The translations under genes were made by a program, and so were the position numbers. A model generated the notes under the pieces. The model had not been told where the DNA came from. It saw only the letters and a list, made by a program, of their open reading frames with translations, and did not search any database. From Calidifontibacter indicus (GTDB lineage Bacteria > Actinomycetota > Actinomycetes > Actinomycetales > Dermatophilaceae): a DNA stretch of 64,000 nt. The stretch spans positions 434,001 through 498,000 of the forward strand of contig NZ_QTUA01000001.1 of NCBI RefSeq assembly GCF_003386865.1. Direction: 5' to 3'. Positions 1 through 35,727 of this stretch are shown piece after piece (position 1 is the stretch's first letter; each line of letters starts with the position of its first letter).

Positions 1-247
1 GCGCGATGCCGTACTGCTCCGGCGACTCGACGCCGACCTTCTTCGCGAACGCGAACGAGGTGTTCTTCTGGGTGTCGGTCGGCAGGACGTCGGCTTGGTC
101 GCCCTCGAGGTGCGCGGCGGTGAAGTCGCCTCGCAGCGAGGTCGATACGTTGAGGTCACGGATCGAGTGGCGATCGGTGTCGCGATAGATCCGGACGACG
201 CGGTTCTCCGCCTTGCCGTACTGGTTGACTCCGAGGGAGATGCTCAT
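1..247 (-). CDS. urate oxidase (uricase), N-terminal part, cut by window edge
   Basis: The first 82 codons of a uricase run off the left edge of the window. The protein reads MSISLGVNQYGKAENRV, then RDLNVSTSLRGDF, and then LPTDTQKNTSFAFAK. The last stretch is the well-known uricase motif carrying the Thr-Asp of the active site. The enzyme oxidises urate to 5-hydroxyisourate with O2 and no cofactor, in purine degradation. The ATG at 247 is preceded by AAGGAG seven bases upstream. A good promoter and a palindrome lie upstream. The rest of the gene lies outside the window, so completeness cannot be judged. Confidence 0.93.
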   Translation of the reverse strand, partial: MSISLGVNQYGKAENRVVRIYRDTDRHSIRDLNVSTSLRGDFTAAHLEGDQADVLPTDTQKNTSFAFAKKVGVESPEQYGIA

Positions 248-311
248 CGGTTGCTCCTTGGGCCGCGCCCTCCGCGGCCAGGGCACGATTGCTGTTTCAG
301 GGTGACGTCAC

Positions 312-328
312 ATTTCGCTACGCGAAAT
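312..328. promoter_or_regulatory. 17-bp palindrome, likely repressor operator for uricase
   Basis: ATTTCGC-TAC-GCGAAAT is a perfect 7-bp inverted repeat with a 3-base centre. It lies about 13-29 bases downstream of the predicted uricase transcription start, a position suited to repression. Which regulator binds it is not shown. The MarR gene nearby is one candidate, because MarR proteins such as HucR control uricase elsewhere, but that link is inference. Confidence 0.5.
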
Positions 329-347
329 TCAAATACCGACTGATGAA

Positions 348-376
348 AAGGTACGAGCGGGTGTGTTCCCTGTCAA
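348..376 (-). promoter_or_regulatory. sigma-70-type promoter of the uricase gene
   Basis: On the minus strand TTGACA (371-376) is followed after exactly 17 bases by TACCTT (348-353). This is an almost canonical housekeeping promoter. Transcription would start near 341, giving a leader of about 95 bases before the uricase ATG. The palindrome at 312-328 falls inside that early leader. Confidence 0.7.
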
Positions 377-419
377 GGGTTCGCACCCGCCCCTATCCAC
401 GCTGCCAAGAGCGTCAGCT

Positions 420-447
420 CCGGCCGGCCGGCCGGCCGGCCGGCCGG
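420..447. repeat. (CCGG)7 self-complementary microsatellite
   Basis: Seven uninterrupted CCGG units lie five bases beyond the stop codon of the MarR gene. Each unit is its own reverse complement, so the tract can fold in RNA or cruciform DNA and is prone to slippage. It may act as a terminator stem between marR and the uricase promoter. No T-run follows, so termination is only a guess. Confidence 0.8.
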
Positions 448-452
448 CGCGG

Positions 453-884
453 TCAGCGGGCGTCGGCCGCGATCTGCCGCAACAGCTCGTTGGCCCGCAC
501 CAGCACCTCGCGGTCCTGTGGCGACAGCGCGGCCAACACCGGCGCAATCACGTCGGTGCGGGCCTGCCGCACCTCCTGCAGCACCCCGCGCCCCGCGTCG
601 GTGAGCGCGATCCGGCTGGCGCGGGCGTCGTCCTCGTCGGGCGTGCGCACGAGCAGCCCCTGCTCCTCGAGCTTCTTCACCTGGGCGGTCATCGTCGGCT
701 GACTGCAGTGGTCGGCCGCGGCGAGTTCGCCGATGCGGGCGTCCTCGTTCGCCTCGACCAGGCCCAGCAGCCGGGCCTGTGCCGACGAGATCGGCAGCAC
801 GGAGTGCTTGGTGGCCCACCGGTTGAATTTCGCGACCGCGGAAAGCAATTGGGCCCCCAACTCGTTGCTGCTCGGTGCACTCAC
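453..884 (-). CDS. MarR-family transcriptional regulator
   Basis: This 143-aa protein has the size and plan of MarR winged-helix repressors: an N-terminal dimerisation helix, a helix-turn-helix around residues 55-80 (AADHCSQPTMTAQVKKLEEQ) and a wing with PDEDDARASRIALT near residues 83-97. The last is the usual D-x-R-A/S wing signature. It likely acts as a dimer on a palindromic operator and responds to a small ligand. Its ATG overlaps the stop of the upstream acyl-CoA ligase (ATGA, 881-884), so the two are co-translated and it probably regulates that operon. The target is not shown by sequence. Confidence 0.9.
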   Translation of the reverse strand: MSAPSSNELGAQLLSAVAKFNRWATKHSVLPISSAQARLLGLVEANEDARIGELAAADHCSQPTMTAQVKKLEEQGLLVRTPDEDDARASRIALTDAGRGVLQEVRQARTDVIAPVLAALSPQDREVLVRANELLRQIAADAR

Positions 885-2416
885 CCCTGGGCCTCCGCGG
901 TGTCGGCCGCCGCCGGAGCACCGGCGGCAGCGCCGTCGGCATCGCGCAGTTCACGTTTGAGGATCTTGCCGGTCGCACCCTTGGGCAGCTCGTCGATGAA
1001 GCGCACGTGCCGCGGGTACTTGTAGGCGGCGACCCGCTCCTTGGCGAAGTCCTTGACCTCGTCCTCGGTCAGCTGCGAGCCGGGCGTGCGCACGACGCAG
1101 GCGACGACCTCCTCGCCGTAGTGCTCGTGCGGCACACCGATCACGGCGACCTCGGCGATCTCGGGGTGCTCGTACAGCGCTTCCTCGACCTCGCGCGGGT
1201 AGACGTTGTAACCGCCGCGGATGATCATGTCCTTGCTGCGGTCGACGATGAAGAAGTAGCCCTCGTCGTCGACACGGGCGAGGTCGCCGGAGAAGAACCA
1301 GCCGTCGCGGATCGCGTCGGCGGTGGCGTCCGGACGGTTCCAGTAGCCCTTCATCAGCAGGTGGCCGCGGATCGCGATCTCACCGATCTCGCCCTCGGGG
1401 CTGTCTGACCCGTCGCTCTGGGCGAGCCGCATCTCGACGCCTTCCAACGGCGTGCCGATCGACCCCGGCTTGCGCTCGCGGTCGGGGTGGTTGAACGAGG
1501 CGACCGGGGAGGTCTCGGACAGGCCGTAACCCTCGAGCACCATGCAGCCGAACCGCTGCTCGAACCTCTTCATCACCTCGACCGGCATCGCCGAACCGCC
1601 ACTGGCGCACAGCCGCAGCGTCGACAGGTCGAACTCGCGGTCGCCGGCGGCGGCCAGCAGCGCCTGGAACATCGTCGGCACGCCCTCGAAGATCGTGACG
1701 TGCTGCTGCTCCATCGCCTCCAGCACGGCGTTCGGCTCGAACCGCGGCACGAGCACGAGCGTGGCGCCGCGGGCGACCGCGGTGTTGAGGCTGCAGGTCA
1801 GACCGAAGACGTGGAAGAGCGGCAGGCAGCCCATGATGATGTCGTCGGACGTGATGCTCATCAGCGTGCGAGCGACCACTTCCTGGTTCTTGTCCAGGGA
1901 GAAGTGGGTCAGCTCGGCGCCCTTCGGACGACCGGTGGTGCCCGAGGTGTAGAGGATGACGGCGGTGTCGTCGTCGGCGCGGTCGACCAGCTCGGTCGAC
2001 GGCTCGAACTCGGCGACCGTAGCGCGCAGACCCTGCGGCATCGGCACCTCGACGAACGGGACGTCGGCGTGCTCGGCACCTGCGGCGGCGTCGCCGGCCA
2101 TGCCGAACAGGATCGAGGCACCGGAGTCGGTCAGGTAGTACTCGACCTCGCGCGGACGGAACAGCGGGTTCATCGGCACGACCGCCGCGCCCACCTGCAG
2201 CGCCCCGTAGAAGATCACCGGGAAGTCGAAGACGTTCGGCAGCGACATCGCGACGCGGTCACCGGGGCCGACGCCACGCTCGGTGAGCATCGTCGCGACC
2301 CGTCCGGCGGCGTCGGCGAGCTCGGCATAGGTCATCGAGTGCTCGCCGAGACGGAGGGCGACCTGATCAGGGTTCGCGGTGGCAGTGTTGCGCAGGTTGG
2401 TGGCCAGATTCGTCAT
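881..2416 (-). CDS. AMP-forming acyl-CoA ligase (long-chain fatty-acid-CoA ligase type)
   Basis: This 511-aa ANL-superfamily enzyme should activate a carboxylic acid with ATP to an acyl-AMP and then to the CoA thioester. The P-loop-like A3 motif ILYTSGTTGRPKGAEL sits near residues 155-170, the A5 motif EGYGLSET near 300, GWFFSGDLA near 370, DMIIRGGYN near 394 and the catalytic-lysine region PKGATGKILKREL near 485. The tail after it is Ala-rich and dispensable-looking. Family members include FadD and pimeloyl or malonyl ligases. A long-chain fatty acid is the likeliest substrate but is unproven. It is translationally coupled to the following MarR gene. Confidence 0.88.
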   Translation of the reverse strand: MTNLATNLRNTATANPDQVALRLGEHSMTYAELADAAGRVATMLTERGVGPGDRVAMSLPNVFDFPVIFYGALQVGAAVVPMNPLFRPREVEYYLTDSGASILFGMAGDAAAGAEHADVPFVEVPMPQGLRATVAEFEPSTELVDRADDDTAVILYTSGTTGRPKGAELTHFSLDKNQEVVARTLMSITSDDIIMGCLPLFHVFGLTCSLNTAVARGATLVLVPRFEPNAVLEAMEQQHVTIFEGVPTMFQALLAAAGDREFDLSTLRLCASGGSAMPVEVMKRFEQRFGCMVLEGYGLSETSPVASFNHPDRERKPGSIGTPLEGVEMRLAQSDGSDSPEGEIGEIAIRGHLLMKGYWNRPDATADAIRDGWFFSGDLARVDDEGYFFIVDRSKDMIIRGGYNVYPREVEEALYEHPEIAEVAVIGVPHEHYGEEVVACVVRTPGSQLTEDEVKDFAKERVAAYKYPRHVRFIDELPKGATGKILKRELRDADGAAAGAPAAADTAEAQG

Positions 2417-2509
2417 GGTCCGAGCGTAGTTCTACTGCCGCGTACAGACGAGGGGTAGGTTGTCGAATTCTCCCAGGCGGCTCCCAGGATGAGGGGTCGC
2501 CGTGGCGGG

Positions 2510-3301
2510 CTAGAGCCAGGAGACGTGATCCTTGAGCAGCGCGTAGCCGACGAACGCCACGATGTCGAGGATCGCGTGCGCGATCACCAACGGCATCACC
2601 CGTCGGGTGCGTCGGTAGACGAGTCCGAACACCAGCCCCATCACGATGTTGCCGACCATCCCGCCGAACCCCTGATACAGGTGGTAGGTGCCGCGGATGA
2701 CCGCCGAGGTCATCAGCACCTGCACCCACGACCATCCGGCCTGGGTCCAGCGGGTGAACAGGTAGCCGATCATCACGACTTCCTCCAGCACCCCGTTCTG
2801 GATCGCGGCGAGCACCAGCACGGGCAGCGTCCACCAATGGTCACCGAGGCCGGACGTCGCGAGGCTGGTGTTGGCGCCGAGGGCTCGAGTGGCCAGGTAG
2901 AACAGCAGGCCGGGAATGCCGATGCCGGCGGCCAGCACCGCGCCGAGGGCGAGGTCGTGGCCTTTGCGCCGTCCGTCGAACCCGAGCCAGGTGGTCGCCG
3001 ATTTCATCTCCCGGCCCAGCAGGTGGATCACCAGCAGCACCGGCACGACACCGAGCCCGACGCCGACCAGTTGATAGAGCAGGTCGAGCCATGACGCGCT
3101 CGCCTGGCTGCGGTTCATCGTGGTCGTCTGCTTGTTGAGCGCGACGTCGGTCGACAGGCTGCGCATGATCGACAGCACCGAGTAGATCGCCGAGGCGCCC
3201 AGGCTGAGCAGCAGCACCAGCGCCGTCTCGGTCTGCAGCGACCGCCGCCGCAGCGGTGTCACCGGGACGTCGTAGGCAGGCAGGCGGACAGGCAGACGCA
3301 T
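2510..3301 (-). CDS. CPBP-family intramembrane glutamic protease
   Basis: This 263-aa polytopic membrane protein carries the three CPBP (Abi/Rce1-like) motifs: a glutamate pair in LEEVVMIGYLFTR near residue 170, RGTYHLYQG near 205, and HAILDIVAF near 245. These glutamate and histidine residues form the active site in Rce1-type proteases. Several hydrophobic helices are visible between residues 25 and 260. It is the last gene of an overlapping four-gene set. Its ATG shares one base with the stop of the ArfC-like gene, so it is probably made together with those membrane proteins. Substrate unknown. Confidence 0.88.
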   Translation of the reverse strand: MRLPVRLPAYDVPVTPLRRRSLQTETALVLLLSLGASAIYSVLSIMRSLSTDVALNKQTTTMNRSQASASWLDLLYQLVGVGLGVVPVLLVIHLLGREMKSATTWLGFDGRRKGHDLALGAVLAAGIGIPGLLFYLATRALGANTSLATSGLGDHWWTLPVLVLAAIQNGVLEEVVMIGYLFTRWTQAGWSWVQVLMTSAVIRGTYHLYQGFGGMVGNIVMGLVFGLVYRRTRRVMPLVIAHAILDIVAFVGYALLKDHVSWL

Positions 3302-4092
3302 CAGCGCTGGTCGGCGTCCCAGTGTGCGAATCCCGCTGCGGCAGCTGATTGCTCGTCGCGGAACCAGACGTCGGCAGCGACCTCGTCGTGCGACGGGCTG
3401 CCGGCCGGGAAGAAGGTCATCGTGCGCCCGCTGGCTTTCACCGGGTAGCCCTCGGGGGCGCTGCCGTCGGGGTTCGCGGACGCCGCGCCCTCGCCGAAGA
3501 GCGCGACCGCCGGGTCGGGTGCTGCCGACCGCCGGGCGGGCGGTTCGTCGGATCGGGGGGCGCTGTCGCCCGGGCGTACGGCGGCGTACCGGGACGGCGG
3601 TGCCCCCGCCGACTGCTCGGCCGGCTCAGGCTGATCAGCCCGCTCAGCCTGCTCGGCCTGCGCAACGGTGAAGGTCTGCCCCGGCTCCCAGTTGCTCACC
3701 TCGACGTCGTCGACGTCGAAGTGCCGCCGGCGGCGGGTGCCGCCGGCGGCCACCGCGACGGGTGCACCGGACGACGCAACCGGGGCCTTCTGGTCGGCCG
3801 CGTCGGCGACGACCGTGTCATCAGGCAGGTCATCAGCCGCGTCATCAGCCGTCTCGTCGACCGCCGCGCCGTCCTTCGTGCGCCGCGACTCCTGCGCGAG
3901 CGCGGCGCGGCGACGGGCGCGTTCGCCGACCGGCTCGGCCGCGGGCGGCGTCTTCGTTCGACGCGGGCCGCGCGGGGCACGCTCACTTCGGGCGACGCGG
4001 GTGGGCCCGAGCATCGCGTAGAAGGTGATCGCGAAGCCGAGCAGCGCGCTGATCAGCACCCACAGCCACACGTGCGGGAACAGCCAGGTCAT
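3301..4092 (-). CDS. ArfC-like membrane protein with C-terminal sunset-type domain
   Basis: This 263-aa protein has one N-terminal membrane helix (residues 4-28), a long disordered Ala/Asp/Pro/Glu-rich linker, and a compact C-terminal module near residues 215-260. The module reads EGYPVKASGRTMTFFPAGS, then VWFRDEQSAAAAGF. Its plan (Y/W-x-VKG-like, xxYx-PGS, VWF, aromatic tail) matches the small module ending mycobacterial ArfC (Rv0901) and other actinobacterial sunset-domain proteins, as I recall them. The start overlaps the stop of the ArfB-like gene (ATGA). The soluble part probably faces the cytoplasm or wall; its function is unknown. Confidence 0.65.
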   Translation of the reverse strand: MTWLFPHVWLWVLISALLGFAITFYAMLGPTRVARSERAPRGPRRTKTPPAAEPVGERARRRAALAQESRRTKDGAAVDETADDAADDLPDDTVVADAADQKAPVASSGAPVAVAAGGTRRRRHFDVDDVEVSNWEPGQTFTVAQAEQAERADQPEPAEQSAGAPPSRYAAVRPGDSAPRSDEPPARRSAAPDPAVALFGEGAASANPDGSAPEGYPVKASGRTMTFFPAGSPSHDEVAADVWFRDEQSAAAAGFAHWDADQR

Positions 4093-4256
4093 GCGTCTTC
4101 CCCCGCCTCGTCGGTCGGCGCCGCGGGCTCACCGGCGGAGGCGACGACCTCGTTCTCGTGCGGGTACAACATCACCGCGAGCAGCCAGGCCGCGAGCGCG
4201 CCGACGGCGAACCCGACGAGGCACCAGGCGATGGTCTGGATCGTCAGCCAGGTCAC
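4089..4256 (-). CDS. small one-helix membrane protein, ArfB-like
   Basis: This 55-aa protein starts with GTG (4254-4256), which overlaps the stop of the upstream BON gene as GTGA. It has a single hydrophobic helix from about residue 5 to 30 (IAWCLVGFAVGALAAWLLAV) and an acidic tail. Size, topology and neighbours match mycobacterial ArfB (Rv0900), a roughly 50-aa protein between ArfA and ArfC. Overlaps on both sides mark it as a real member of the operon. Assignment rests on topology and order, because so short a sequence gives little homology signal. Confidence 0.7.
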   Translation of the reverse strand: MTWLTIQTIAWCLVGFAVGALAAWLLAVMLYPHENEVVASAGEPAAPTDEAGEDA

Positions 4257-4561
4257 TGCGCGCTCCCCTGCACGTCGACCGTGCGCACCCCGGGCATCTT
4301 CGCGATGGCGTCCCGCGCCGGAGCAGCGTCGGCCCCAGCGGGGGTGCGCAGCGTCGCGTCCCGACCGTCGAAGGTCACCGTGGCGTCGCCGACCCCCACG
4401 CCCTGCAGCACCTGCTGGGCGCGTTTGGTGAGGTCGTCCTGGATCGCACCCTTGCTCGCCTGGGCTCCGACGAACCCGAAGATCAACGGGATGCCGAACA
4501 ACGCGGCGATCCACCACGGCGCCGGGGTGCGGCGCACGCGCGCGCCGGTTGTCGATGTCAC
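4253..4561 (-). CDS. membrane-anchored BON-like protein, ArfA-like N-terminus without OmpA domain
   Basis: This 102-aa protein has a short basic cytoplasmic start, one membrane helix (residues 15-35, WWIAALFGIPLIFGFVGA) and about 60 extracytoplasmic residues. The latter read like one BON repeat: an alpha segment with LTKRAQQVLQGVG, then DATVTFDGRDATLRTPAG, then MPGVRTVDVQG. Mycobacterial ArfA (OmpATb) has the same anchor and BON repeats but continues into an OmpA peptidoglycan-binding domain, which is absent here. It is the first gene of the four-gene operon and divergent from the amidohydrolase. Confidence 0.62.
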   Translation of the reverse strand: MTSTTGARVRRTPAPWWIAALFGIPLIFGFVGAQASKGAIQDDLTKRAQQVLQGVGVGDATVTFDGRDATLRTPAGADAAPARDAIAKMPGVRTVDVQGSAQ

Positions 4562-4683
4562 TTCGTGCTGCTCCTGTTCGGATCGGGCCGTCCCGAACCT
4601 ACCCGGTGAACCAGCGTCCGGACGGTCGCCGGCGCCGGTGCCGGCCGCCTGCCCGCGCCGTCCGCAGGGTTGGTGGCCCGCAC

Positions 4684-4689
4684 TACATT
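4684..4689 (+). promoter_or_regulatory. candidate -10 box for a leaderless amidohydrolase mRNA
   Basis: TACATT ends six bases before the GTG at 4696, so transcription would begin at or next to the start codon. No Shine-Dalgarno sequence precedes that GTG. Leaderless mRNAs are common in actinobacteria. No clear -35 box is seen. Confidence 0.4.
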
Positions 4690-4695
4690 GTGCGG

Positions 4696-6255
4696 GTGAG
4701 CACCCTGTGGCGTGGCGAGAAGATCTGGACCGGAACCGAATTCGTCACCGGCGTGTTGCTCGAGGCCGGACGCGTGGTCGCGAGCGGCGACGCCGAATCC
4801 CTTGCCGCACAGACCGTTTCGCAGATCGAGACATTGCCGGGTGCGCTCGTGGTGCCGGGTCTGCACGACGCCCACATCCATGCCGCGTCGCTGGCGCGGG
4901 TGCGCACCGAGGTCGACGTGCGTGGCTGTGCCGACGAGTTCGAAGCGGCCGAGCGGGTGGCGCGCTTTCTCGCGGCGAATCCGGGCACCGGTCTGGTGTG
5001 GGGCGGCGCGTGGGACGCGAACCAGTGGGGTGGTCGGCAGCCCCACCGGCGCACCCTCGACGTCGTGACGGGGCCGCGTCCGGTGGTGTTGGCGAGCGCC
5101 GACTACCACTCGCTGTGGGCGAACTCGGCCGCGCTGCGGCTCGTGGGTTACGGCCCGGAGACCACCGACCCGGCCGGCGGACGCCTCGAGCGCGACGCCG
5201 ACGGTGAGCTCACCGGGGTGCTGCGGGAGACGGCCTGCACCGCCTTCGACGACCTGCCGATCGACGACGCCGACGCCCTGCCCGGCCTGATCGCGCAGAC
5301 GATCGACGACCTGCTCGCGGTGGGGCTGACCGGCATCACCGAGATCGATCACGAGGACGCCCATGTGGCGCTGCGCGCGCTGCATGAGCAAGGTGCCCTG
5401 AAGATGCGGGTCAGCAAGGCGATCCGGCACGAAGACCTCCCGCTGGCGATGCAGCAGGGGCGCCGCACCGGCGAAGGCGACGACTGGATTCGAGTCGGGC
5501 CGCTGAAACTGTTCGCCGACGGCGCGCTCGGTTCGCACACCTGCCACATGACAGAGGCGTTCGCCGGTGAGGACGGGCACGACGGTGGACATGGCGTGCC
5601 GACGCTCACCCAGGAGCAGCTGAAGGTCTACACCGAGCTCGCGGTGCGAGCCGGCATCGCGGTGGCGACCCACGCGATCGGTGACCGTGCGGCGACCGAG
5701 GTGCTCGACGCGTACGAGCACGTGCTCGGGGCGACCGGCTCAGACCTTCGGCTGCGCATCGAACACGCCCAGCACCTGCGCCGGGCCGATCTGGCCCGAA
5801 TGGCGCGGCTGGGTGTGGTCGCCTCGATGCAGCCGGTGCACTGCACCACCGACTTCCAGCTCGTGGATGCGTTGCTCGACGGCCACGACATCGTGTCGTA
5901 CGGCTGGCGGTCGGCGCTCGACGCCGGGGTGCCGCTGGCGTTCGGGTCGGACGCTCCCGTCGAAGACCCGAATCCGTTCGTCGCCCTGCACGCGGCGGTC
6001 ACCCGACAGCGCGTCGACGGCACTCCCGCCGGCGGCTGGCAGCCGCACGAGCGGGTGAGCATGATCGAGGCGCTGGCCGCCCACTCGCGCGGGGCCGCCT
6101 ACGCAGCCGGTTGGGACGACGTGGGCACGCTCACCCCCGGCATGCTCGCCGACTTCGTCGCGGTCGACACCGATCTCATGGCGACGCCCGAGCGCGCACA
6201 CGAAGCGCGGGCGCTGACAACGGTCGTCGGCGGCGAGAGGCGGTTCAGCCGCTGA
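4696..6255 (+). CDS. YtcJ-type metal-dependent amidohydrolase
   Basis: This 519-aa enzyme belongs to the amidohydrolase superfamily, YtcJ/AepA-like branch, and hydrolyses C-N bonds of an unknown substrate with a metal centre. Visible ligands are HDAHIH near residue 57, the carbamylation-type lysine region GPLKLFADGALGS near 272, THAIGD near 325, IEHAQHL near 355 and GSDAPVEDPNP near 418. The GTG at 4696 is chosen because the beta-strand start STLWRGEKIWTG follows directly and a -10 box lies just upstream; upstream in-frame codons look non-coding. Its 3' end overlaps the convergent phosphatase gene by 11 bases. Confidence 0.85.
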   Translation: MSTLWRGEKIWTGTEFVTGVLLEAGRVVASGDAESLAAQTVSQIETLPGALVVPGLHDAHIHAASLARVRTEVDVRGCADEFEAAERVARFLAANPGTGLVWGGAWDANQWGGRQPHRRTLDVVTGPRPVVLASADYHSLWANSAALRLVGYGPETTDPAGGRLERDADGELTGVLRETACTAFDDLPIDDADALPGLIAQTIDDLLAVGLTGITEIDHEDAHVALRALHEQGALKMRVSKAIRHEDLPLAMQQGRRTGEGDDWIRVGPLKLFADGALGSHTCHMTEAFAGEDGHDGGHGVPTLTQEQLKVYTELAVRAGIAVATHAIGDRAATEVLDAYEHVLGATGSDLRLRIEHAQHLRRADLARMARLGVVASMQPVHCTTDFQLVDALLDGHDIVSYGWRSALDAGVPLAFGSDAPVEDPNPFVALHAAVTRQRVDGTPAGGWQPHERVSMIEALAAHSRGAAYAAGWDDVGTLTPGMLADFVAVDTDLMATPERAHEARALTTVVGGERRFSR

Positions 6256-6826
6256 GCGCAGCGGCCGCGGGGTCGAGTTCGGTGGTGTGCACGCTGCCGT
6301 TGTCGATCGCGAGGTGCCAGTCGAGTTGTCGGTGCGTGCGGCCGGCGAGCACCGCGAGGGCGACGCGCAGTGTGTCGCCGTGGGTGACGAGCACGAGGTA
6401 GTCGGCGGGCGCCGTCGCCAGTTCGGCCAGCAGCGCGCTCAGCCGGCGGTGCACATCGAGCAGGCTCTCGCCCCCGCCCCAGCGCACCTCCTCGACCGGC
6501 ACGCCTTCGGGTGCGGGTTGCGCGGTCAGTTCGCGGGCGAGCCGCCCTTCCATCTCCCCCAGGGCCTGCTCCCGCAGCCGCACCTCGGTGCGCACCGGCA
6601 GATCGAGCGCGGCGCCGATGATCTGGGCCGTCTCCTGCGCGCGCACGAGGTCGCTGCTGACGATCTGCGCCGACTGCGCGCCGATCGCTGCGCGCAGCGT
6701 TCGCGCTGCCGCGAGCGCCTGGGTGCGGCCGAGCTCGGTGAGCGGCGGGTGCGGCGTCTGCCCCTGAATGCGCCCCTGCTCGTTCCACGTCGACCGGCCA
6801 TGGCGGACGAGGTGGACGGTGGGCAT
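6245..6826 (-). CDS. histidine phosphatase, probable alpha-ribazole phosphatase (CobC-like)
   Basis: This 193-aa protein has the histidine-phosphatase signature LVRHGRSTWNEQGRIQG at residues 6-22 (phosphorylated His about residue 9), a glutamate around EQALGEMEG, and the second active-site histidine in LVTHGDT near 150. In cobalamin gene clusters such proteins usually remove the 5'-phosphate from adenosylcobalamin phosphate or alpha-ribazole phosphate. Its start lies 25 bases from that of cobQ on the other strand, which supports that role. A generic phosphoglycerate-mutase-like phosphatase remains possible. Confidence 0.75.
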   Translation of the reverse strand: MPTVHLVRHGRSTWNEQGRIQGQTPHPPLTELGRTQALAAARTLRAAIGAQSAQIVSSDLVRAQETAQIIGAALDLPVRTEVRLREQALGEMEGRLARELTAQPAPEGVPVEEVRWGGGESLLDVHRRLSALLAELATAPADYLVLVTHGDTLRVALAVLAGRTHRQLDWHLAIDNGSVHTTELDPAAAALSG

Positions 6827-6837
6827 GAGAACGATCG

Positions 6838-6843
6838 TAGACT
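6838..6843 (+). promoter_or_regulatory. candidate -10 box for leaderless cobQ mRNA
   Basis: TAGACT ends eight bases before the cobQ ATG at 6852. The gap between the two divergent start codons is only 25 bases and holds no Shine-Dalgarno motif, so a leaderless cobQ transcript is the simplest reading. No cobalamin riboswitch fits in this space. Confidence 0.4.
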
Positions 6844-6851
6844 CGTACCCC

Positions 6852-8321
6852 ATGTCGGGGCTGCTGGTGACGGGAACGAGCTCGGACGCCGGAAAATCGT
6901 TGCTGGTCACCGGGATTCTGCGTGCCTGGGCCCGCCGCGGGGTGCGCGTCGCCCCGTTCAAGGCGCAGAACATGTCGAACAACTCGATGGTCTGTGCCGA
7001 CGGCAGCGAGATCGGCCGCGCGCAATACCTGCAGGCCGAGGCGGCCGGTGTCGAGGCCACCTCGCTGCACAACCCGGTGCTGCTGAAACCGGGGTCCGAC
7101 CGGCGCGCCTTCGTGGTGGTGCGCGGCCGCCCGGCCGGCGAGTTGCGGGCGGGCGAGTACGCCACCGGACGCGCCCACCTGCGCGAGGCGGCGTTCGCTG
7201 CGTACGAGGAGTTGGCCGCGTCCGTCGACGTAGTGGTGTGCGAGGGAGCCGGGTCACCGGCGGAGATCAACCTGCGCGCGGGCGACTATGTCAACCTCGG
7301 TCTGGCACGGCGGTTCGGCCTACCGGCGTTGCTGGTGGCCGACATCGACCGCGGCGGCGCGCTGGCCGCCACCTACGGCACCTGGGCGTTGCTCGACGAC
7401 GCCGACCGCGCGGTGCTGCGGGCGTGGTGCGTCAACAAGTTCCGTGGTGACCGCTCGGTGCTCGACCCCGGCCTCGACACGATCGTCGAACGCACCGGCA
7501 TGCCATGTGTCGGCGTGCTGCCCTGGCTCGACGACGTGTGGCTCGACGGTGAAGACGCCCTCTCCATCGGTCGCTGGAAACCCGCTGCAGCACAAGCACA
7601 TTCGCTCACCGTGGCGGTCGTCCGCCTGCCGCGCACCTCGAACGCGACCGACGTCGACGCGCTGGCCGCCGAACCCGGTGTCGAGGTGCGCGTGACCACC
7701 GACCCGTCGTGGTGCCGGGAAGCCGACCTGTTGGTGCTGCCGGGTTCACGGTCGACGGTCAGCGATCTCGCCTGGTTGCGTTCGCGCGGGCTCGACGCGG
7801 TGGTCGACGAGCGGGTGCGCGAGGGTCGTCCGGTGCTCGGCATCTGCGGTGGCTACGAGATGTTGCTGGAGTCGATCGACGACTCGCTGGAAAGCGGCGA
7901 CGGCGTCACTCCCGGCCTCGGGCATCTGCCTGGTGTGGTGCACTTCGCAGCCGACAAGGTGCTCGCCCGGCCGCACTCCTCCTGGCAGGGAAATGCGGTG
8001 TCCGGCTACGAGATTCACCACGGCATCGTCGAGGGCGTTGTCGACGAGGTGGTCGGCGATGACGGGTCGTTCCCGGGCGGCAGCGTGCGCGGCCCGGTGT
8101 GGGGCACGATCTGGCACGGCACCCTGGAGAACGACGCCTTCCGCCGGGCCTGGCTCACCGTGGTTGCGCAGCAGGCGGGCTCCACCTGGAGCCCGCAGCC
8201 CGGCCCGGGGTTCGCCGACCGCCGGACGGCGATGATCGACACGCTCGCCGACGCCGTGGAGCAACACCTCGATCTCGACCGACTGCTCGACCTCGCCCGA
8301 CGGGAATCTCATGACCACTGA
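6852..8321 (+). CDS. cobQ: cobyric acid synthase CobQ/CbiP
   Basis: This 489-aa enzyme amidates four side chains of adenosylcobyrinate a,c-diamide, using glutamine and ATP. The N-terminal dethiobiotin-synthetase-like ATPase domain opens with LLVTGTSSDAGKSLLVTG (P-loop) and contains APFKAQNMSNNS and CEGAGSPAEINL. The C-terminal class I amidotransferase domain has the nucleophilic Cys in VLGICGGYEML near residue 332 and the His in SGYEIHHG near 383. Length is typical. The ATG at 6852 begins the ATPase strand directly. It overlaps cobF by 11 bases. Confidence 0.95.
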   Translation: MSGLLVTGTSSDAGKSLLVTGILRAWARRGVRVAPFKAQNMSNNSMVCADGSEIGRAQYLQAEAAGVEATSLHNPVLLKPGSDRRAFVVVRGRPAGELRAGEYATGRAHLREAAFAAYEELAASVDVVVCEGAGSPAEINLRAGDYVNLGLARRFGLPALLVADIDRGGALAATYGTWALLDDADRAVLRAWCVNKFRGDRSVLDPGLDTIVERTGMPCVGVLPWLDDVWLDGEDALSIGRWKPAAAQAHSLTVAVVRLPRTSNATDVDALAAEPGVEVRVTTDPSWCREADLLVLPGSRSTVSDLAWLRSRGLDAVVDERVREGRPVLGICGGYEMLLESIDDSLESGDGVTPGLGHLPGVVHFAADKVLARPHSSWQGNAVSGYEIHHGIVEGVVDEVVGDDGSFPGGSVRGPVWGTIWHGTLENDAFRRAWLTVVAQQAGSTWSPQPGPGFADRRTAMIDTLADAVEQHLDLDRLLDLARRESHDH

Positions 8322-9087
8322 CCCGATTCCGTTGCAGGTCAAGATCATCGGCATCGGTGCGGGCTCGCCCGGCCACGTCACCGCCGACGCCGCCGACGCC
8401 CTGCGCAGCGTCGACGTGTTCGTCGTGGCCGACAAGGGCGCCGCCACCGACGAGTTGCTGCAGGTGCGCCGCGCGATCCTCGACCGCTTCGTGCCCGACG
8501 GCGGCTACCGGTTCGTCGCGGTGCCCGACCCGAAGCGCGGCCCCGACGCCGGCCGTGATCGCGACGAGTACGGCGCCGCGGTGCGCGACTGGCACGCCGC
8601 GCGCGCCGACGCGTACGCCGCCGTGCTGGGCGAGTTGCCCGAGGGCACCGTGGTCGGTTTCCTGGTGTGGGGCGACCCGGCATTCTACGACAGCACGATC
8701 CGCGTGGTCGACGCCGTCGCCACCCGAATGCCGTTGCAGGTCAGCGTTTTTGCCGGAATCAGCGCCATCCAGGAGCTGGCCGCCGCGCACCACATCGTGC
8801 TGCACGAGATCGGCGAGCCGGTGCACATCACCACCGGACGCCGCCTGGCGGGCGAGTGGTCGCCCGACCTCGGCACCGTCGTGGTGATGCTCGACGGCGC
8901 GCTCGCCTGCCGCGACCTGGTCGAGCGGGCACCCGACCTGCAGATCCACTGGGGCGCCTACCTGGGAATGCCGCAACAGGAGCTGCGCTCGGGCCGGTTG
9001 GCCGACGTCATCGACGAGTTGGTAGCCACTCGCGCCCGGCTGCGCGAGCAGCACGGCTGGATCATGGACGTCTACGCGTTGCGCTGA
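8311..9087 (+). CDS. cobF: precorrin-6A synthase (deacetylating) CobF
   Basis: This 258-aa SAM-dependent tetrapyrrole methylase should methylate C-1 of the corrin ring with loss of the acetyl group extruded at C-17, a step specific to the aerobic route. The SAM-site motifs are IIGIGAGSPGHVT at residues 11-23, VVADKGAATDELL near 36, LVWGDPAFYDSTI near 117 and FAGISAIQELA near 144. Its start overlaps the cobQ end. Its last 16 bases overlap the 3' end of the convergent bluB-cobT gene. Confidence 0.93.
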   Translation: MTTDPIPLQVKIIGIGAGSPGHVTADAADALRSVDVFVVADKGAATDELLQVRRAILDRFVPDGGYRFVAVPDPKRGPDAGRDRDEYGAAVRDWHAARADAYAAVLGELPEGTVVGFLVWGDPAFYDSTIRVVDAVATRMPLQVSVFAGISAIQELAAAHHIVLHEIGEPVHITTGRRLAGEWSPDLGTVVVMLDGALACRDLVERAPDLQIHWGAYLGMPQQELRSGRLADVIDELVATRARLREQHGWIMDVYALR

Positions 9088-29826: not shown

Positions 29827-30356
29827 AGACCCTCGTCACCGGCGGGGTGCGCTCGGGCAAGAGCGCCGCGGCCGAGGCGGCCATGTCGGCTGCGGCGCCC
29901 GACGGCGCCGTCGTCTACGTGGCCACCGGACCCACCACCGACGACCCCGACTGGGCCGATCGCATCGCCGAGCACCGCGCGCGGCGCCCCACGGACTGGA
30001 CCGTGCTCGAGACCACCGACCTGGCCGCCGTGCTTGCCGACCGCACCGAGGCGTTGCTCGTCGACTGCCTCGGCACCTGGCTCACCGCCCGCCTCGACGC
30101 GCTCGCGGTGTGGGACGCGCCGTCCGCCGAGTGGGCGGGGGCGCTCGACACCGAGTTCGACGCGGTGGTCGATGCGCTCGCCGCCCGCCGCGAACCAGCG
30201 GTGCTCGTGACCAACGAGGTGGGGCTGGGGTTGGTGGCGCCGCATCGGTCGGGGCGCATCTTCGCCGACAGCCTGGGCCGGCTCAATCAACGAGTGGCAG
30301 CCGTGTGCGACCGCGTGGTGTTGGTGGTCGCCGGTCAGTCGCTGGTGATCAAGTGA
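29823..30356 (+). CDS. cobU: adenosylcobinamide kinase / guanylyltransferase CobU/CobP
   Basis: This 177-aa bifunctional enzyme phosphorylates and guanylylates adenosylcobinamide. The P-loop is LVTGGVRSGKSAAAE at residues 4-18. The guanylylated histidine is in RIAEHRARRP near residue 51. LLVDCLGTWLTARL and LVTNEVGLGLVAPHRSGRIFADSLGRLNQ are the other family blocks. ATG overlaps the cobV stop; the cbiB GTG overlaps its stop. Confidence 0.95.
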   Translation: MKTLVTGGVRSGKSAAAEAAMSAAAPDGAVVYVATGPTTDDPDWADRIAEHRARRPTDWTVLETTDLAAVLADRTEALLVDCLGTWLTARLDALAVWDAPSAEWAGALDTEFDAVVDALAARREPAVLVTNEVGLGLVAPHRSGRIFADSLGRLNQRVAAVCDRVVLVVAGQSLVIK

Positions 30357-31276
30357 GCACGCGCCCCTATACGCGACGTGCCGCTGGTCTGCTCGCCGGC
30401 TACCTCGCCGACCGCGTGCTCGGCGATCCGCGGCGGTTGCATCCGGTGGCCGGATTCGGCTGCACCGCAGCCGCGTTGGAGAAGCTCACCTACCGACCGA
30501 CGCGGGTGGCCGGAGCGGCGCACGTGTGCTTGCTGGTCGGTGCCGTGGCGTTCGCCGGACGATTGCTGCCGCGGCACACAGTGGTGGTCGCGGCGGCCAC
30601 GTGGACGGTGCTCGGCGGACGGTCGTTGGAGCGTGAGGCGCTCGCGGTGCACGACCTCCTGGCCCGCGGCGACCTCGACGGTGCGCGGGTGCGGGTGCGC
30701 AACCTGGTCGGTCGCGACACCAGCGGCCTCGACGCGGGCCAGGTGGCGCGCGCCGCGGTGGAGTCGGTGGCCGAAAACGGTTCGGACGCCGTCGTCGCGC
30801 CGCTGTTCTGGGGTGCGTTGGCCGGCACGCCGGGGTTGCTTGCCCATCGCGCGATCAACACGCTCGACGCGATCATCGGCCATCACACGCCCCGATACGA
30901 GCAGTTCGGTTGGGCCGCAGCCAAACTCGACGACCTGGCCAACTGGCCGGCGGCACGGGTGAGCGTGCTGTGCACCATGCTGGTGCAGCCCCACCGCGTC
31001 CCCGCGATCGTCACGACCGTGCGGCGCGACGCGCCCGCCCACCCCAGCCCGAACGCCGGCCCGGTGGAGTCGGCGTACGCTGCCGCCCTCGGGGTGCGAC
31101 TTGGCGGCACGAACAGTTATCACGGCGCGGTCGAGCACCGCGGGGTGCTCGGCGACGGACGGGCCGTCGCGCCCGATGATCTGCTGCGCGTCGTCCGGCT
31201 GCACCGCCGAGTGTGCGGCGCAGCCCTTGCGATGAGCGTCGCCGCGTCGCTCGGCGTCTCAGCGCTGCGAAGCTGA
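30353..31276 (+). CDS. cbiB: adenosylcobinamide-phosphate synthase CbiB/CobD
   Basis: This 307-aa membrane protein attaches the aminopropanol linker to adenosylcobyric acid. Conserved blocks include LADRVLGDPRRLHPVAGFG near residue 19, VESVAENGSDAVVAPLFWGALAG near 140, AINTLDAIIGH near 175 and APAHPSPNAGPVESAYAAALGVRLGGTNSYHG, which spans about 225-257. The GTG at 30353 overlaps the cobU stop. It is the last clear gene of the riboswitch operon, after which base composition changes. Confidence 0.93.
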   Translation: MSTRPYTRRAAGLLAGYLADRVLGDPRRLHPVAGFGCTAAALEKLTYRPTRVAGAAHVCLLVGAVAFAGRLLPRHTVVVAAATWTVLGGRSLEREALAVHDLLARGDLDGARVRVRNLVGRDTSGLDAGQVARAAVESVAENGSDAVVAPLFWGALAGTPGLLAHRAINTLDAIIGHHTPRYEQFGWAAAKLDDLANWPAARVSVLCTMLVQPHRVPAIVTTVRRDAPAHPSPNAGPVESAYAAALGVRLGGTNSYHGAVEHRGVLGDGRAVAPDDLLRVVRLHRRVCGAALAMSVAASLGVSALRS

Positions 31277-31428
31277 TGGCGACGCCCGGACCGTCTCTGC
31301 GGCGGTCGCTGGGACAACGCCTCACTGTTTTCGATCTCGCTGGAGCTGCGATCGCTCATCTGCCGTACCCCTGGACGAGGGTGTTGATCGATTCCGGGTG
31401 CAATGGCCGACCAGTCGGCTTAGAGTCG

Positions 31429-31878
31429 TCAGACAGGGGTGTCTTGGACAGCATGCTTTAGGCGATAGCAGATTGCCTCCATCTGCTTCGGGTTGCAAGT
31501 TATTTGCGATACGTCTACAGTTTCCGATCCCAACTCTGAAGTAATCTCAAGAACGAGCGTTCGAGCCCTCAAGCCAACCCCGGCCGACGGGCCAGCAGGG
31601 ACATGTTCAATTCCGCGGACGCAGGCGCATGGGATTCTGCGCGATCCGATAAAACCCCAAATTATTAACATCCCTCGGTGATCCACCGAGACTCCTACCC
31701 GCAGTGCCCTTAGTGAATATGCCGTGCCCAGAATTCCAAACGCCGCCGCACCAGGACTTAGGTGCCAAAAAAGACTCACTAGTGCACTAAGAGAAATTGG
31801 GGCAATAACTAATGTTTCATACCTAACTATTCCGACCCATAGAATGTTTACGGGATCGCGCATTTCAAATCCCACCAT
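31429..31878 (-). CDS. unknown membrane protein, PH-like plan
   Basis: This 149-aa protein is not recognised. Two hydrophobic segments lie near residues 22-55, followed by a soluble part with VDHRGMLIIWGFIGSRRIPC and VLEITSELGSETVDVS. This order (membrane hairpin, then short beta-strands) recalls small bacterial PH-domain membrane proteins, but that is only an impression. The start is well supported: AGGGGAGGG precedes the ATG at 31878. Codons are clearly less GC-rich than those of the cobalamin genes, suggesting later acquisition. Confidence 0.6.
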   Translation of the reverse strand: MVGFEMRDPVNILWVGIVRYETLVIAPISLSALVSLFWHLSPGAAAFGILGTAYSLRALRVGVSVDHRGMLIIWGFIGSRRIPCACVRGIEHVPAGPSAGVGLRARTLVLEITSELGSETVDVSQITCNPKQMEAICYRLKHAVQDTPV

Positions 31879-32051
31879 CTGCCCTCCCCTGAACCGGCCC
31901 TAGCCCTCAAGCCGCCATCGGCGCCGTGTTCGACCCGGCCCGCCCGCACCGTAACGCGAGTCGTTGACCGCGTAGCCGTCGACGCTGCGGATCTGAATAT
32001 CGGTCTGGTGTCAACGTCGCGACTTGCACAGGTATGCGCAGCATGGGCTGC

Positions 32052-32882
32052 TCAGTCTGAGTCGCTTCCTTCGAGGTAGAGCAGCGCCTCACCGAGGTCA
32101 TGCTCACCACCATCGAAGGCTTCGGTCGTCATGATCAGTTCCCCGAGCACGGCAGGTGTCGCGCGGACATGCTCGTACATCTCCCGTCCGAGGCTGACCA
32201 CGGAAGCTCGCACGTTCTCCCACACGTCGGCGCTGAGGTAGCCCATGACCGACTCGGCGTGTGCGGCGTGGTCGGCCGAGTCGAGATCTTCGATGAGCAG
32301 CCTCATGCGGGCGGTGAACTTGTCGGCCTCCTTCCACGGCAGCAGAAATGCGCCGGTCCGTTCATCGACCGTCGCGCTGACCAACTCCCAGAACCGCTCG
32401 ACCGGCATCGGGCTGGGGCGCCGAACTCGAAGCGGCGGCAAGGTTCCCGGCCCTGGGTCGGTCCCGCCGTCCGCGAGCCATTCCAGCTCCCGCTTGGTCC
32501 GGCGCAGCGACGTCGGCGGGTCGTCGCCGACGGCCCGCGAGAACACTTCCAGGACAGCCTCGACGATCGCCACCAGGCGGAGCCCGATCTGCGGGCCTAC
32601 CGGAAGCTCGCAGAAGTGATCGGCATCCAGGTTCAGGTCGCCGTACCACGAGTCGTGGTCAAAACTCAGGCTGCTCGGCCCGGGCTTACCCGAAAGGAAC
32701 ACGCCCAGTTGGAACCGACGGTTACGACGACCGCTCCAGACCGCCCAGCCCTCGTCCTCACCTGCGTGCTGATTGATGGTCGCGGCCCGGGCCTGGATGA
32801 GGCGGCTGATCTCCTTCGGCGGGCCGCCGTCCTTTCCCTGGTACGGGTCGCTGTGATGGACGCGGAAGCTCACGCCCATCAC
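32052..32882 (-). CDS. unknown protein with C-terminal DUF4240-like domain
   Basis: This 276-aa protein has an unknown N-terminal half (DHDSWYGDLNLDADHFCELPVG; positions about 74-95) and a C-terminal half from residue about 155 that fits the DUF4240 plan: MPVERFWELVSATV, then a helical stretch ending SADVWENVRASVVSLGREMYEHVRATP. DUF4240 proteins often occur near secreted-toxin or immunity genes, but no toxin is seen here. No Shine-Dalgarno motif is obvious; in-frame starts at 32882 and 32879 are both possible. Confidence 0.6.
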   Translation of the reverse strand: MMGVSFRVHHSDPYQGKDGGPPKEISRLIQARAATINQHAGEDEGWAVWSGRRNRRFQLGVFLSGKPGPSSLSFDHDSWYGDLNLDADHFCELPVGPQIGLRLVAIVEAVLEVFSRAVGDDPPTSLRRTKRELEWLADGGTDPGPGTLPPLRVRRPSPMPVERFWELVSATVDERTGAFLLPWKEADKFTARMRLLIEDLDSADHAAHAESVMGYLSADVWENVRASVVSLGREMYEHVRATPAVLGELIMTTEAFDGGEHDLGEALLYLEGSDSD

Positions 32883-33050
32883 GGTAGCGACAACGACAAG
32901 CCCGGGCTACCCAACGGGACTCTTAATACCATCATTCATTCCCAACTTCAGAGGACTAACCGCGAAATTTCATCGGGTCACTGGACGGGGTGATAAACGT
33001 TCGAGGCTAGACACGCAGGAATTGAAGGGCCATTTGTAGCCAGATCCAAT

Positions 33051-33515
33051 CTACTGCCGCTTTATCCTCTCTGCCAAGACGCGTAATTTCTGCTCTGCAA
33101 TTCCGGCACCTATGAGTGACCACAAAATGGGTGCAAGACACAGAAACACTGCAATTGCCGAGACGCCTAGATCTTGGTATGACCGTGCACGAATAATGCC
33201 GCCAACACAGATTAAACTGAGGATTCCCATGAATCCAGCCGTGAACCACCATCGAGATCGAATTCCGCCTGGTACTTCCTCATGGAATACCCGAATCCGC
33301 TCACAAGTGGCGGCCAGTGCTAACAGGATACCCTTCATCTCACGATAACAATCCCCATGTCCGGCCAAGGTATTGGCCGGAGCCTCGTACGATCCTTCTT
33401 GCAACATACCCACTCCGCGCAGCCGTACGAGGGAGGCTGAAACGAGCGCTTCGTGCAGCAGGAACCCGGGCGAAGTCGATGTCGACCGCAGAACGCCATG
33501 CAAAGTTAACGCCAT
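33051..33515 (-). CDS. unknown two-helix membrane protein with duplicated start region
   Basis: This 154-aa protein is not recognised. Residues 90-110 and 117-137 form two membrane helices (WWFTAGFMGILSLICVGGII and an AVFLCLAPILWSLIGAG stretch), followed by a basic tail. The 5' end is odd: a well-placed AGGAG and a GTG at 33531 lie just upstream but are out of frame because of a 16-bp tandem duplication (33494-33525). Translation may therefore begin at the ATG at 33515 created by the repeat, or at an internal ATG at 33407 preceded by GGAG. Low-GC codon use. Confidence 0.5.
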   Translation of the reverse strand: MALTLHGVLRSTSTSPGFLLHEALVSASLVRLRGVGMLQEGSYEAPANTLAGHGDCYREMKGILLALAATCERIRVFHEEVPGGIRSRWWFTAGFMGILSLICVGGIIRARSYQDLGVSAIAVFLCLAPILWSLIGAGIAEQKLRVLAERIKRQ

Positions 33516-33525
33516 CCAAAGTTAA
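33494..33525. repeat. 16-bp tandem duplication at the 5' end of a gene
   Basis: CGCCATGCAAAGTTAA and CGCCATCCAAAGTTAA stand head to tail with one mismatch. The insertion length is not a multiple of three. Removing one copy would put the GTG at 33531 and its AGGAG ribosome site in frame with the downstream membrane protein. Confidence 0.85.
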
Positions 33526-33785
33526 AGACACTTCGTCTACTCCTAAAATTGGTCAAGGCTGCACGGTTGGCAACGGCGTAGCCAGCTGAAACGATTGCGG
33601 CTGCGGTGCAAATTCCGGCACGTCTCGACTATGACTGCGTCCACCTATCCAGTTCCTCCCGATCGCCATCACTCCGCGGCACCGTGAACGATCCGGGCTA
33701 GTCGACAGCGCATACTTCTGCGCTGCGGCCCAGCGAGCGTACCCAAGACCTTCTCGACAGCAGCGCAAGTAATATCGGGAGCGGG

Positions 33786-34289
33786 CTACTGTGCGGCGGT
33801 CTCCACTCCGTCGGACACCTGCACATTCACGTGGTTCAGGGCGCGGACCTTCTTGCCGACCTCCCCCTTGGACGCGGCAGTGGTGATCCGTACGTTCACG
33901 CGCAGATTGCGAAGATCGACACCGACGCCCATGATCTGTCGGCCCGCTGGGTCAATCTTCTCGACGTCCTGCTGGGTGCGTCGAAGTTCACGATCCCCAA
34001 CCTCGGAGATGCGCGGCAGGAAGCCCTCGTCCCTGATCGTGGACATCGCGGCGCGTTCCTGAGCGGAGACGATCACGAAGAAGGAGGTCGTGCCGGTCTG
34101 ATACATACCGTTGACGGCCGGGTGCTTCCTCTGCAGTTCGGCGTACTTCTGCCCCGCAGTCGACTGGGTGAGAACCGGGATCGTTCCACCGGTCTGCGTC
34201 GGCTCAGGACCCGTCGGCCCGGAGCAGCCTGTCATCACAAGAACAAACCCTGCCAGCGCGGTACAAAGTCGGATACCCAGTCGTTTCAT
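33786..34289 (-). CDS. unknown lipoprotein
   Basis: This 167-aa protein begins with a type II signal peptide: MKRLGIRLCTALAGFVLVM followed by the lipobox TGCSG, with the lipidated Cys near residue 22. The mature part has no family I can name. It contains TTSFFVIVSAQERAAMS and a beta-like end with VDLRNLRVNVRITTAAS. ATG at 34289 is chosen because the signal peptide starts there and the preceding small gene ends two bases upstream, implying coupling. Likely anchored to the outer face of the membrane. Confidence 0.75.
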   Translation of the reverse strand: MKRLGIRLCTALAGFVLVMTGCSGPTGPEPTQTGGTIPVLTQSTAGQKYAELQRKHPAVNGMYQTGTTSFFVIVSAQERAAMSTIRDEGFLPRISEVGDRELRRTQQDVEKIDPAGRQIMGVGVDLRNLRVNVRITTAASKGEVGKKVRALNHVNVQVSDGVETAAQ

Positions 34290-34291
34290 TG

Positions 34292-34447
34292 CTATCCAAC
34301 CTTCAAAGAGCTGCATCCGCTTTGCATCCACGCGCCGATTGATTGGACGGCAGCTATGTCAGGCTTCCCGTAGGACACTCGCACCGCAGGGTCCTGCTTG
34401 ATCGAGTCGAGAAGGCTCGCGCCGACCACTGTTAATCGTTTGAACAC
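34292..34447 (-). CDS. small unknown protein (51 aa) upstream of the lipoprotein
   Basis: A GTG-initiated frame of 51 codons begins at 34447, with AGGGGG four bases upstream. It ends with TAG two bases before the lipoprotein ATG. The protein reads FKRLTVVGASLLDSIKQDP and then SYGKPDIAAVQSIGAWMQSG, an ordinary mix of residues. Position, ribosome site and tight spacing argue for a real gene coupled to the lipoprotein. Function unknown; it might instead be the tail of a longer decayed gene. Confidence 0.5.
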   Translation of the reverse strand: MFKRLTVVGASLLDSIKQDPAVRVSYGKPDIAAVQSIGAWMQSGCSSLKVG

Positions 34448-34916
34448 TTGTCCCCCTGAAGTACCGTGAAGGGTGTGTGCTGATTAAAGTACTCGCCTGT
34501 CGGATGAGGTGGAAGACCGTAAGCTCAGATTGTGAAGCCGCACGCATCCTGCGTCTTACCTTCGGCGCGTCCGTGGGTGTCGATCTTCGTCCGACGGCGC
34601 GGCTGGGGTTGACCCCGTCTGGTGGACATCGGTTACGCGGCTTGAGTAGCCGATACTTCTCCTTCTCCTCTTCCGAGAGACGACCACAAAGAAAGGAAGT
34701 CCATCCGACCGCCTTCGAACAAGAGACCGATCCCGAAGGGAAGAGCAGCAGTGGCGGATTCGGTTCGGAACAGGATGCGGGCCGCCGTCAAGTTCCTCGC
34801 TCGCGTGGACCTCCACGTCGGAACTCCCTAGAACGACCGGGTGCCACCATTGTTGCCATAAGAGCACATGACTCAACAAGGACCACGTTGAATGCACCGC
34901 GGGTACTCGATGACGG
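34448..34916. other. gene-poor stretch between accessory patch and cobK
   Basis: About 470 bases hold no frame I can support. A plus-strand frame through 34477-34900 and a minus-strand frame across 34556-34916 have low-complexity Arg/Ser-rich translations and no ribosome sites. Composition is intermediate between the patch and the core. It may contain decayed coding sequence. A TTTAAT about 40 bases above the 51-aa gene could be its -10 box. Confidence 0.5.
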
Positions 34917-35675: not shown

Positions 35676-35727
35676 GGTGACAGTTCTACCGGTCGGTGCG
35701 CAGCGCCGTGCGAGCGCACCGGCCCGG

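Follow-up and report, generated by a model that had tools for sequence, protein, structure and literature searches.

Gene content of the locus

We have analyzed a gene cluster near one end of a 64,000-nucleotide stretch (the window; G000:C1:434001-498000) of the 3.6 Mb genome of Calidifontibacter indicus. Four overlapping ORFs on the minus strand, between window positions 2510 and 4561, were confirmed as real, and the same four were chosen by a codon-usage gene caller run on positions 1-9000 of the window. They are transcribed in the order BON-like gene, arfB, arfC, CPBP (Table 1). An earlier reading of this DNA from its letters alone (the sequence-only reading) had described each gene as overlapping the next, which is what we find: the overlaps are GTGA (4 nt), ATGA (4 nt) and TGATG (1 nt). 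Hydropathy analysis predicts one helix each in the BON-like protein, ArfB and ArfC, and six in the CPBP protein. A promoter scan of the locus found none, and the single terminator-like site, against 0.4 expected, lies on the opposite strand. The four genes are predicted to form one translationally coupled operon, which we regard as probable as part of the overall interpretation given below. Farther along, within positions 30001-36000, the GC fraction drops to 0.606 at 32-34 kb; over the window's first 30 kb it is about 0.72.

Table 1. Features of the arf locus in the window
Feature	Position	Strand	Remarks
Reduced ArfA (P0002)	4253..4561	-	102 aa; GTG start; N-terminal helix and one BON-like module (BON-a)
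ArfB-like one-helix protein	4089..4256	-	55 aa; GTG start overlaps the preceding stop (GTGA)
ArfC-like protein	3301..4092	-	263 aa; helix at the N-terminus, then a long disordered linker and, at the C-terminus, a sunset domain; overlaps arfB (ATGA)
Divergent single sunset domain of ArfC	3304..3441	-	NF051437; residues 218-259 plus tail
CPBP (Rce1-like) intramembrane glutamic protease, putative	2510..3301	-	263 aa; TGATG overlap with arfC
AmHyd (amidohydrolase-like, label by reading)	4696-6255		Divergent, upstream of the arf genes
FadD and MarR (labels by reading)			Downstream of CPBP

The ArfB and ArfC proteins

The window locus resembles mycobacterial arfABC/ompATb (Rv0899-Rv0900-Rv0901) in gene order, in an ArfB of about 50 aa with one helix, and in an ArfC made of a helix and a sunset tail. 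Profile comparison does relate the second and third products to Rv0900 and Rv0901: ArfB matches NF051435 (ArfB_Rv0900) with 31.1 bits (E 2.2e-7), below the cut-off of 40, and ArfC matches NF051433 (ArfC_sunset) over its full length with 80.3 bits (E 2.3e-22), below the cut-off of 100. Since the window proteins miss the NCBIfam Arf cut-offs, membership in the arf lineage is not provable from the window alone. The sunset domain of the window ArfC scores 49.7 bits with NF051437, over the cut-off of 27; in a scan of the genome this copy scores 54.0 bits and the best copy 75.6. The genome holds six sunset matches. Those besides ArfC (L302-L306) are a ribosomal protein L4 with a sunset tail (over the cut-off), a 676-aa one-helix protein, a 197-aa protein that seems to carry a signal peptide, a thermonuclease-like protein and one weak match.

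ArfB was aligned over 11 sequences (alignment A1). The N-termini of ArfB and ArfC match one common ArfB profile, and it is probable, again as part of the overall interpretation, that the two are paralogous one-helix proteins. At all 12 arf loci described below, ArfC has 0-1 K/R residues before the helix and 3-6 after it, and by the charge rule its tail would be cytoplasmic in 12 of 12. The flanks of the other two window proteins (three K/R on each side in ArfA, none on either side in ArfB) leave their topology undecided by charge.

The first gene encodes a reduced ArfA

The BON label of the first gene was the weakest part of the observation. P0002 has no match in NCBIfam, which includes ArfA (NF051434, cut-off 81), and nothing above 0.03 in Pfam, neither BON nor OmpA (PF00691). 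Across the whole genome, Pfam BON gives zero matches and NF051434 zero at E<=0.001; the sole OmpA match lies at C1:227328, away from the arf locus. A single-sequence AlphaFold2 model of P0002 suggests an alpha-beta-beta-alpha-beta order, with a block of pLDDT 75-85 at residues 41-100 (mean pLDDT 67.2; helix region <50). A Foldseek search with this model ranks OsmY, a BON protein, first with a weak E value of 5.7e-3 and DolP eighth, with zero matches at E<=1e-3, and OsmY is also the best hit (E 0.0086) of a PDB profile search. The likeness to OsmY and DolP is thus one of modelled fold order; P0002 differs from them in carrying a single module on a transmembrane helix, and sequence similarity is very weak. 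The orthologue at L078 matches Pfam BON below threshold (20.4 bits, cut-off 27).

P0002 can be aligned (alignment A2, 12 rows) with the N-terminal part of full-length ArfA proteins, and it matches that part in six genomes (G101, G077, G040, G027, G122 and G018) with E values from 6.2e-21 to 2.2e-15. The helix and BON-a of the window protein are common to the full ArfA at the syntenic locus. In the ArfA of L081, NF051434 matches residues 168-280, and residues 146-407 can be aligned with the Rv0899 structure 2L26 (E 8e-29); the window protein matches the segment before that region, namely the helix and the first BON module. The sequence-only reading had called this an ArfA without its OmpA domain. 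OmpA is indeed lacking from the 102-aa protein, but the description understated the reduction: as judged from these alignments, the OmpATb_N pair of BON-type modules recognised by NCBIfam is also missing, and only the helix and BON-a are kept. In mycobacterium-type ArfA (L300, L308) the helix or N-terminus appears, by reading, to lead directly to the BON pair, with BON-a apparently absent, while ArfA of two other genomes outside the family (G450 and G704; L301 and L318) has BON-a, the BON pair and OmpA by reading, OmpA also by Pfam. By this comparison the window protein and Rv0899 have little in common beyond the anchor, and they are bridged by the forms that carry all modules.

The same locus in related genomes

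Among 149 genomes of the family, our own included, the BON-like protein is found at E<=0.001 in 15, and in 12 of these (own included) it lies upstream of CPBP on the same strand. The other three matches (G090, G037, G133) are weak, with E values of 2.1e-5 to 9.3e-4, and lie off the CPBP locus. Genes were called in the window and in CPBP-centred stretches of 60 chosen genomes, picked to span the majority of genera and to include each of the 11 strong BON matches outside the window genome. The order BON protein-ArfB-ArfC upstream of CPBP is present in 12 of these 61 loci, window included, in several genera. Such recurrence speaks against a chance arrangement, and neither result that would have refuted the sequence-only reading (no profile relation to Rv0900/Rv0901, or an order confined to one genus) was obtained. 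ArfC directly precedes CPBP in 10 of the 12; one small gene intervenes in L102 and two in L094. At several loci only ArfC or CPBP remains; L087, L089 and L092, where a sunset protein lies by CPBP and ArfA and ArfB are uncalled, were tallied apart as ArfC-only, the protein start in L087 being uncertain. The sister genomes G009 (without arf at this locus) and G058 have in common a small acidic ORF (MSDD..NDPYDEAPVH) just before CPBP, at L100:3398-3563 and L102:3395-3584.

ArfA comes in two sizes, 99-127 aa in five loci (window, G059, G010, G004, G058) and 254-437 aa in seven; PF00691 matches lie inside all seven long genes and none of the five short ones. Pfam OmpA was found in the long proteins scanned, those of L081, L084, L094 and L095, the last twice; the ArfA of L095 (G003, L095:4919-6121) has two tandem OmpA domains. 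The loci of genus g40 (L081, L090 and L093; one of its genomes, G077, is Luteipulveratus sp. YIM 133296) resemble the window in lying upstream of CPBP and in having a homologous helix-BON-a, ArfB and ArfC N-terminus. They differ in an ArfA of 409-437 aa with three BON-type modules plus OmpA, in several ArfC sunset domains (four stretches in L081) and in the 192-347 nt that separate ArfC from CPBP.

These relatives connect the window to arfABC. L081 scores 98 bits for ArfA (cut-off 81), 297.4 for ArfC_sunset (cut-off 100) and 39.6 for ArfB, just under 40; L094 scores 45.6 for ArfB (cut-off 40) and 156.6 for ArfC (cut-off 100). Syntenic orthologues thus exceed Arf cut-offs, and the window genes are thereby linked to arfABC; the match in order and topology to arfA-arfB-arfC that the sequence-only reading had proposed is supported through them. 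The failure of all the window proteins to reach an Arf cut-off would also fit three unrelated small membrane genes that happen to mimic the arfABC order, but such an independent look-alike is rejected as extremely improbable, given the same-locus orthologues over the cut-offs and the match of P0002 to the N-terminal part of their ArfA proteins.

Direction of change

An rpoB tree was built from 30 genomes: 29 of the 149 family genomes, among them all 15 with arf or ArfC only, and one outgroup. All 15 fall inside a clade of 22 (support 93/99), from which arf is absent in seven; three further genomes in the clade have only a sunset protein. The G145 row sits on a very long branch. Each of the two sub-clades contains BON-only forms (G058 in the first, G004 and the window genus in the second), and OmpA-bearing ArfA is present at the same locus in relatives from both. 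A single clade of the five BON-only genomes is rejected (AU p 1.7e-49), and OmpA must have changed at least twice among the 12 loci. The eight OmpA domain rows from the seven long ArfA proteins form one group (91/89), separated at 100/100 from 12 further OmpA rows taken from the family. Since the BON-only forms are not a clade and the ArfA OmpA domains are one group, OmpA is ancestral here and was lost at least two times.

The sequence-only reading had suggested that the minimal form might be ancestral, a BON-only ArfA coming first and OmpA being added later. The presence of BON-only forms in both sub-clades speaks for such a history, but by hand count it takes three changes, against two if OmpA is ancestral, and the single OmpA group makes it unlikely that ArfA acquired OmpA late and more than once from other OmpA genes. 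Outside the family, too, there is OmpA-bearing ArfA accompanied by ArfC or ArfB (L300, L301, L308-L311, L318). On the rpoB tree, the AU test and the single OmpA group we reject an ancestral minimal Arf as quite improbable; from these trees the minimal form of the window looks derived.

The sunset domain of ArfC is present at all seven OmpA-bearing loci and at one of the five BON-only loci, the exception being the window with its one divergent copy. This association of OmpA loss with sunset loss is suggestive, because there are only two independent pairs and a sign test on them cannot reach 0.05.

The CPBP protease

The fourth product matches PF02517 (Rce1-like) with 63.8 bits, over the cut-off of 22.4, and the CPBP assignment made by the sequence-only reading stands. 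Residues E173, E174, H207, N218 and H242, which include the EE, H and H motifs of CPBP proteases, are invariant in all nine arf-linked CPBP orthologues. The protein shares the curated Pfam match and the motif residues with other CPBP/Rce1-like proteases but belongs to none of the CPBP subfamilies named in NCBIfam, its best score being 27.9 bits where the cut-off is 435. A plasmid search with it returned six records, none informative.

ArfC and CPBP are separated by -1, -1, +4 and -4 nt in the window, L076 (G059), L077 (G010) and L078 (G004); at the six loci that bear OmpA and have no intervening gene the gap is 151-347 nt. CPBP orthologues are found at E<=1e-15 in 142 of the 149 family genomes, 12 of which have arf, and CPBP is conserved beside non-arf neighbours too. 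In a named scan of 576 relatives, 80 CPBP loci were kept (Streptomyces, Micromonospora and others), and arfABC was present in one, L160, in which stretches of L090 recur word for word; this match gave G077 its name, Luteipulveratus sp. YIM 133296. The same scan gave a weak ArfC match (E 2.8e-5) in L224 of Micromonospora solifontis. None of the five mycobacterium-type arf loci examined has CPBP beside it within the 12-14 kb fetched, whereas CPBP follows arf in the window. The protease that the sequence-only reading had thought built in therefore amounts only to adjacency, with coupling in two genera: CPBP is a neighbour of arf, and its tight coupling is confined to the window genus and one other (g5). 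An obligate role as an Arf component is rejected, given the arf-less CPBP loci in and outside the family and the lack of CPBP at the five mycobacterium-type loci examined.

Distribution outside the family

A phylum survey with the ArfB profile found 17 of 346 genomes at E<=0.01 and only three (own, G470, G450) below 1e-3, an under-count, as G243 and G296 are unscored there yet have an ArfB-like gene at their loci. A class survey with NF051434 found 68 of 394 genomes at E<=0.001, of which 12 of 394 are over the cut-off, all of them f6 g59. We infer that the f6 g59 loci are the mycobacterium type and use the name in this sense; five of the 12 were fetched, and all five have ArfA-ArfB-ArfC with a sunset domain. 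Eight fetched f93 loci encode ArfA-like proteins, with no ArfB, ArfC, sunset or CPBP matches nearby; L319-L321 were left out because their ArfA matches are weak. Our literature search recognised no description of arfABC outside mycobacteria, and a search on the sunset domain returned nothing related. The window operon is a newly found, reduced variant of the known Arf system.

Selection on the four genes

The dN/dS ratios between the window and the sister species G059 are 0.31 for BON, 0.27 for ArfB, 0.44 for ArfC and 0.14 for CPBP; between the window and G010 they are 0.61, 0.19, 0.32 and 0.22, respectively. BON reaches 0.61-0.66 in comparisons with G010; these ratios come from a counting method, and some dS values are above 1. 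The open frames of the arf genes are intact in all three species of the window genus. By these ratios all four genes are constrained, BON-a least. The adjacent AmHyd gene has 98% identity to G059 and a dS of 0.077, against 0.644 for CPBP and 0.228 for BON, which looks like a recombination tract with one end near arf.

These values bear on the possibility that the link to CPBP is purely positional, an independent actinobacterial gene lying beside arf genes that are a decaying remnant without joint function. The near-universal CPBP in the family, its recurrence in Streptomyces, Micromonospora and others with arfABC at one of 80 kept loci, the loss of arf from seven of the 22 clade genomes with three more keeping only a sunset protein, and the loci reduced to ArfC or CPBP all speak for this possibility. 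Against this stand the low dN/dS of ArfA, ArfB and ArfC versus G059, the intact frames in three species, and couplings of 1-4 nt at all four loci of the window genus and g5. We consider a purely positional link unlikely, although it is the most serious of the alternatives discussed here.

Interpretation

Our preferred reading, to which we give a probability of roughly 0.6, is that the operon encodes a reduced, predicted ArfABC membrane complex together with a CPBP protease. In the full form, a helix-anchored ArfA would carry as many as three BON-type modules plus a domain of OmpA type, peptidoglycan-binding by family, and ArfC would have one or more sunset domains as a cytoplasmic tail; a complex of plasma-membrane helices would thus join a wall-facing OmpA side to a cytoplasmic sunset side. 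The physical complex, its topology (from the charge rule), the wall binding of the full form and the function as a whole are inferred. The window genus has lost OmpA, the putative wall anchor, and is losing the sunset tail, leaving a core of helix and BON-a, ArfB and the ArfC helix. This stripped core is still under purifying selection and is probably now translationally coupled to CPBP; the protease may have the small Arf membrane complex as its target or work together with it, but action on ArfA, ArfB or ArfC themselves is a guess. A stronger version, which we consider improbable, would make Arf a modular device whose OmpA and sunset domains act as a pair and are lost together, the core serving in the window genus and g5 as a regulator or substrate of CPBP.

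The window lineage is not known to make a mycolate outer membrane, and for this reason the operon is not expected to encode an outer-membrane porin here. For M. tuberculosis arfABC, acid adaptation and ammonia secretion have been reported, and a porin role doubted (PMC6151718, PMC3816664); reviews call it controversial which of three roles OmpATb/ArfA has: porin, wall anchor or ammonia-secretion factor (PMC3816664). One report assigns Rv0900 (ArfB) to the post-transcriptional regulation of OmpATb (PMC3618439), in agreement with a partnership between ArfB and ArfA. BON domains, according to the DolP paper, are not general lipid binders (PMC7806268), and lipid binding is therefore not assumed for BON-a. 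A non-mycolate lineage that keeps arfABC, and from which OmpA has been repeatedly dropped and most likely sunset too, provides a natural series for asking which part matters, in bacteria that can be handled more easily. Arf also becomes a non-obvious candidate partner for the conserved CPBP protease.

Sunset tails and other proteins

Sunset is a tail not only of ArfC proteins but also of ribosomal L4, L17, L20 or S2. In G450 (L301:1958-3034) an N-terminal helix like that of ArfC or ArfB continues into a coiled coil, and the tail at the C-terminus is instead one that NCBIfam matches to the tails of ribosomal L21 (46.3 bits) and S2 (29.9), NuoE and phasin. These shared tails raise the weaker possibility that ArfC tails address the translation machinery. 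Against it, the sunset of L4 (NF051449) and that of ArfC do not co-occur: among 29 genomes, 15 have NF051449 over its cut-off, and these count G059, G010 and G004, whose ArfC is without sunset; none of the five mycobacterium-type genomes has it, and there ArfC does end in sunset. In the ArfC-like protein of G704 (L318:6632-7123), the sunset tail matches the Pfam Ada metal-binding domain below threshold (19.2 bits, cut-off 23), perhaps a hint of where sunset came from.
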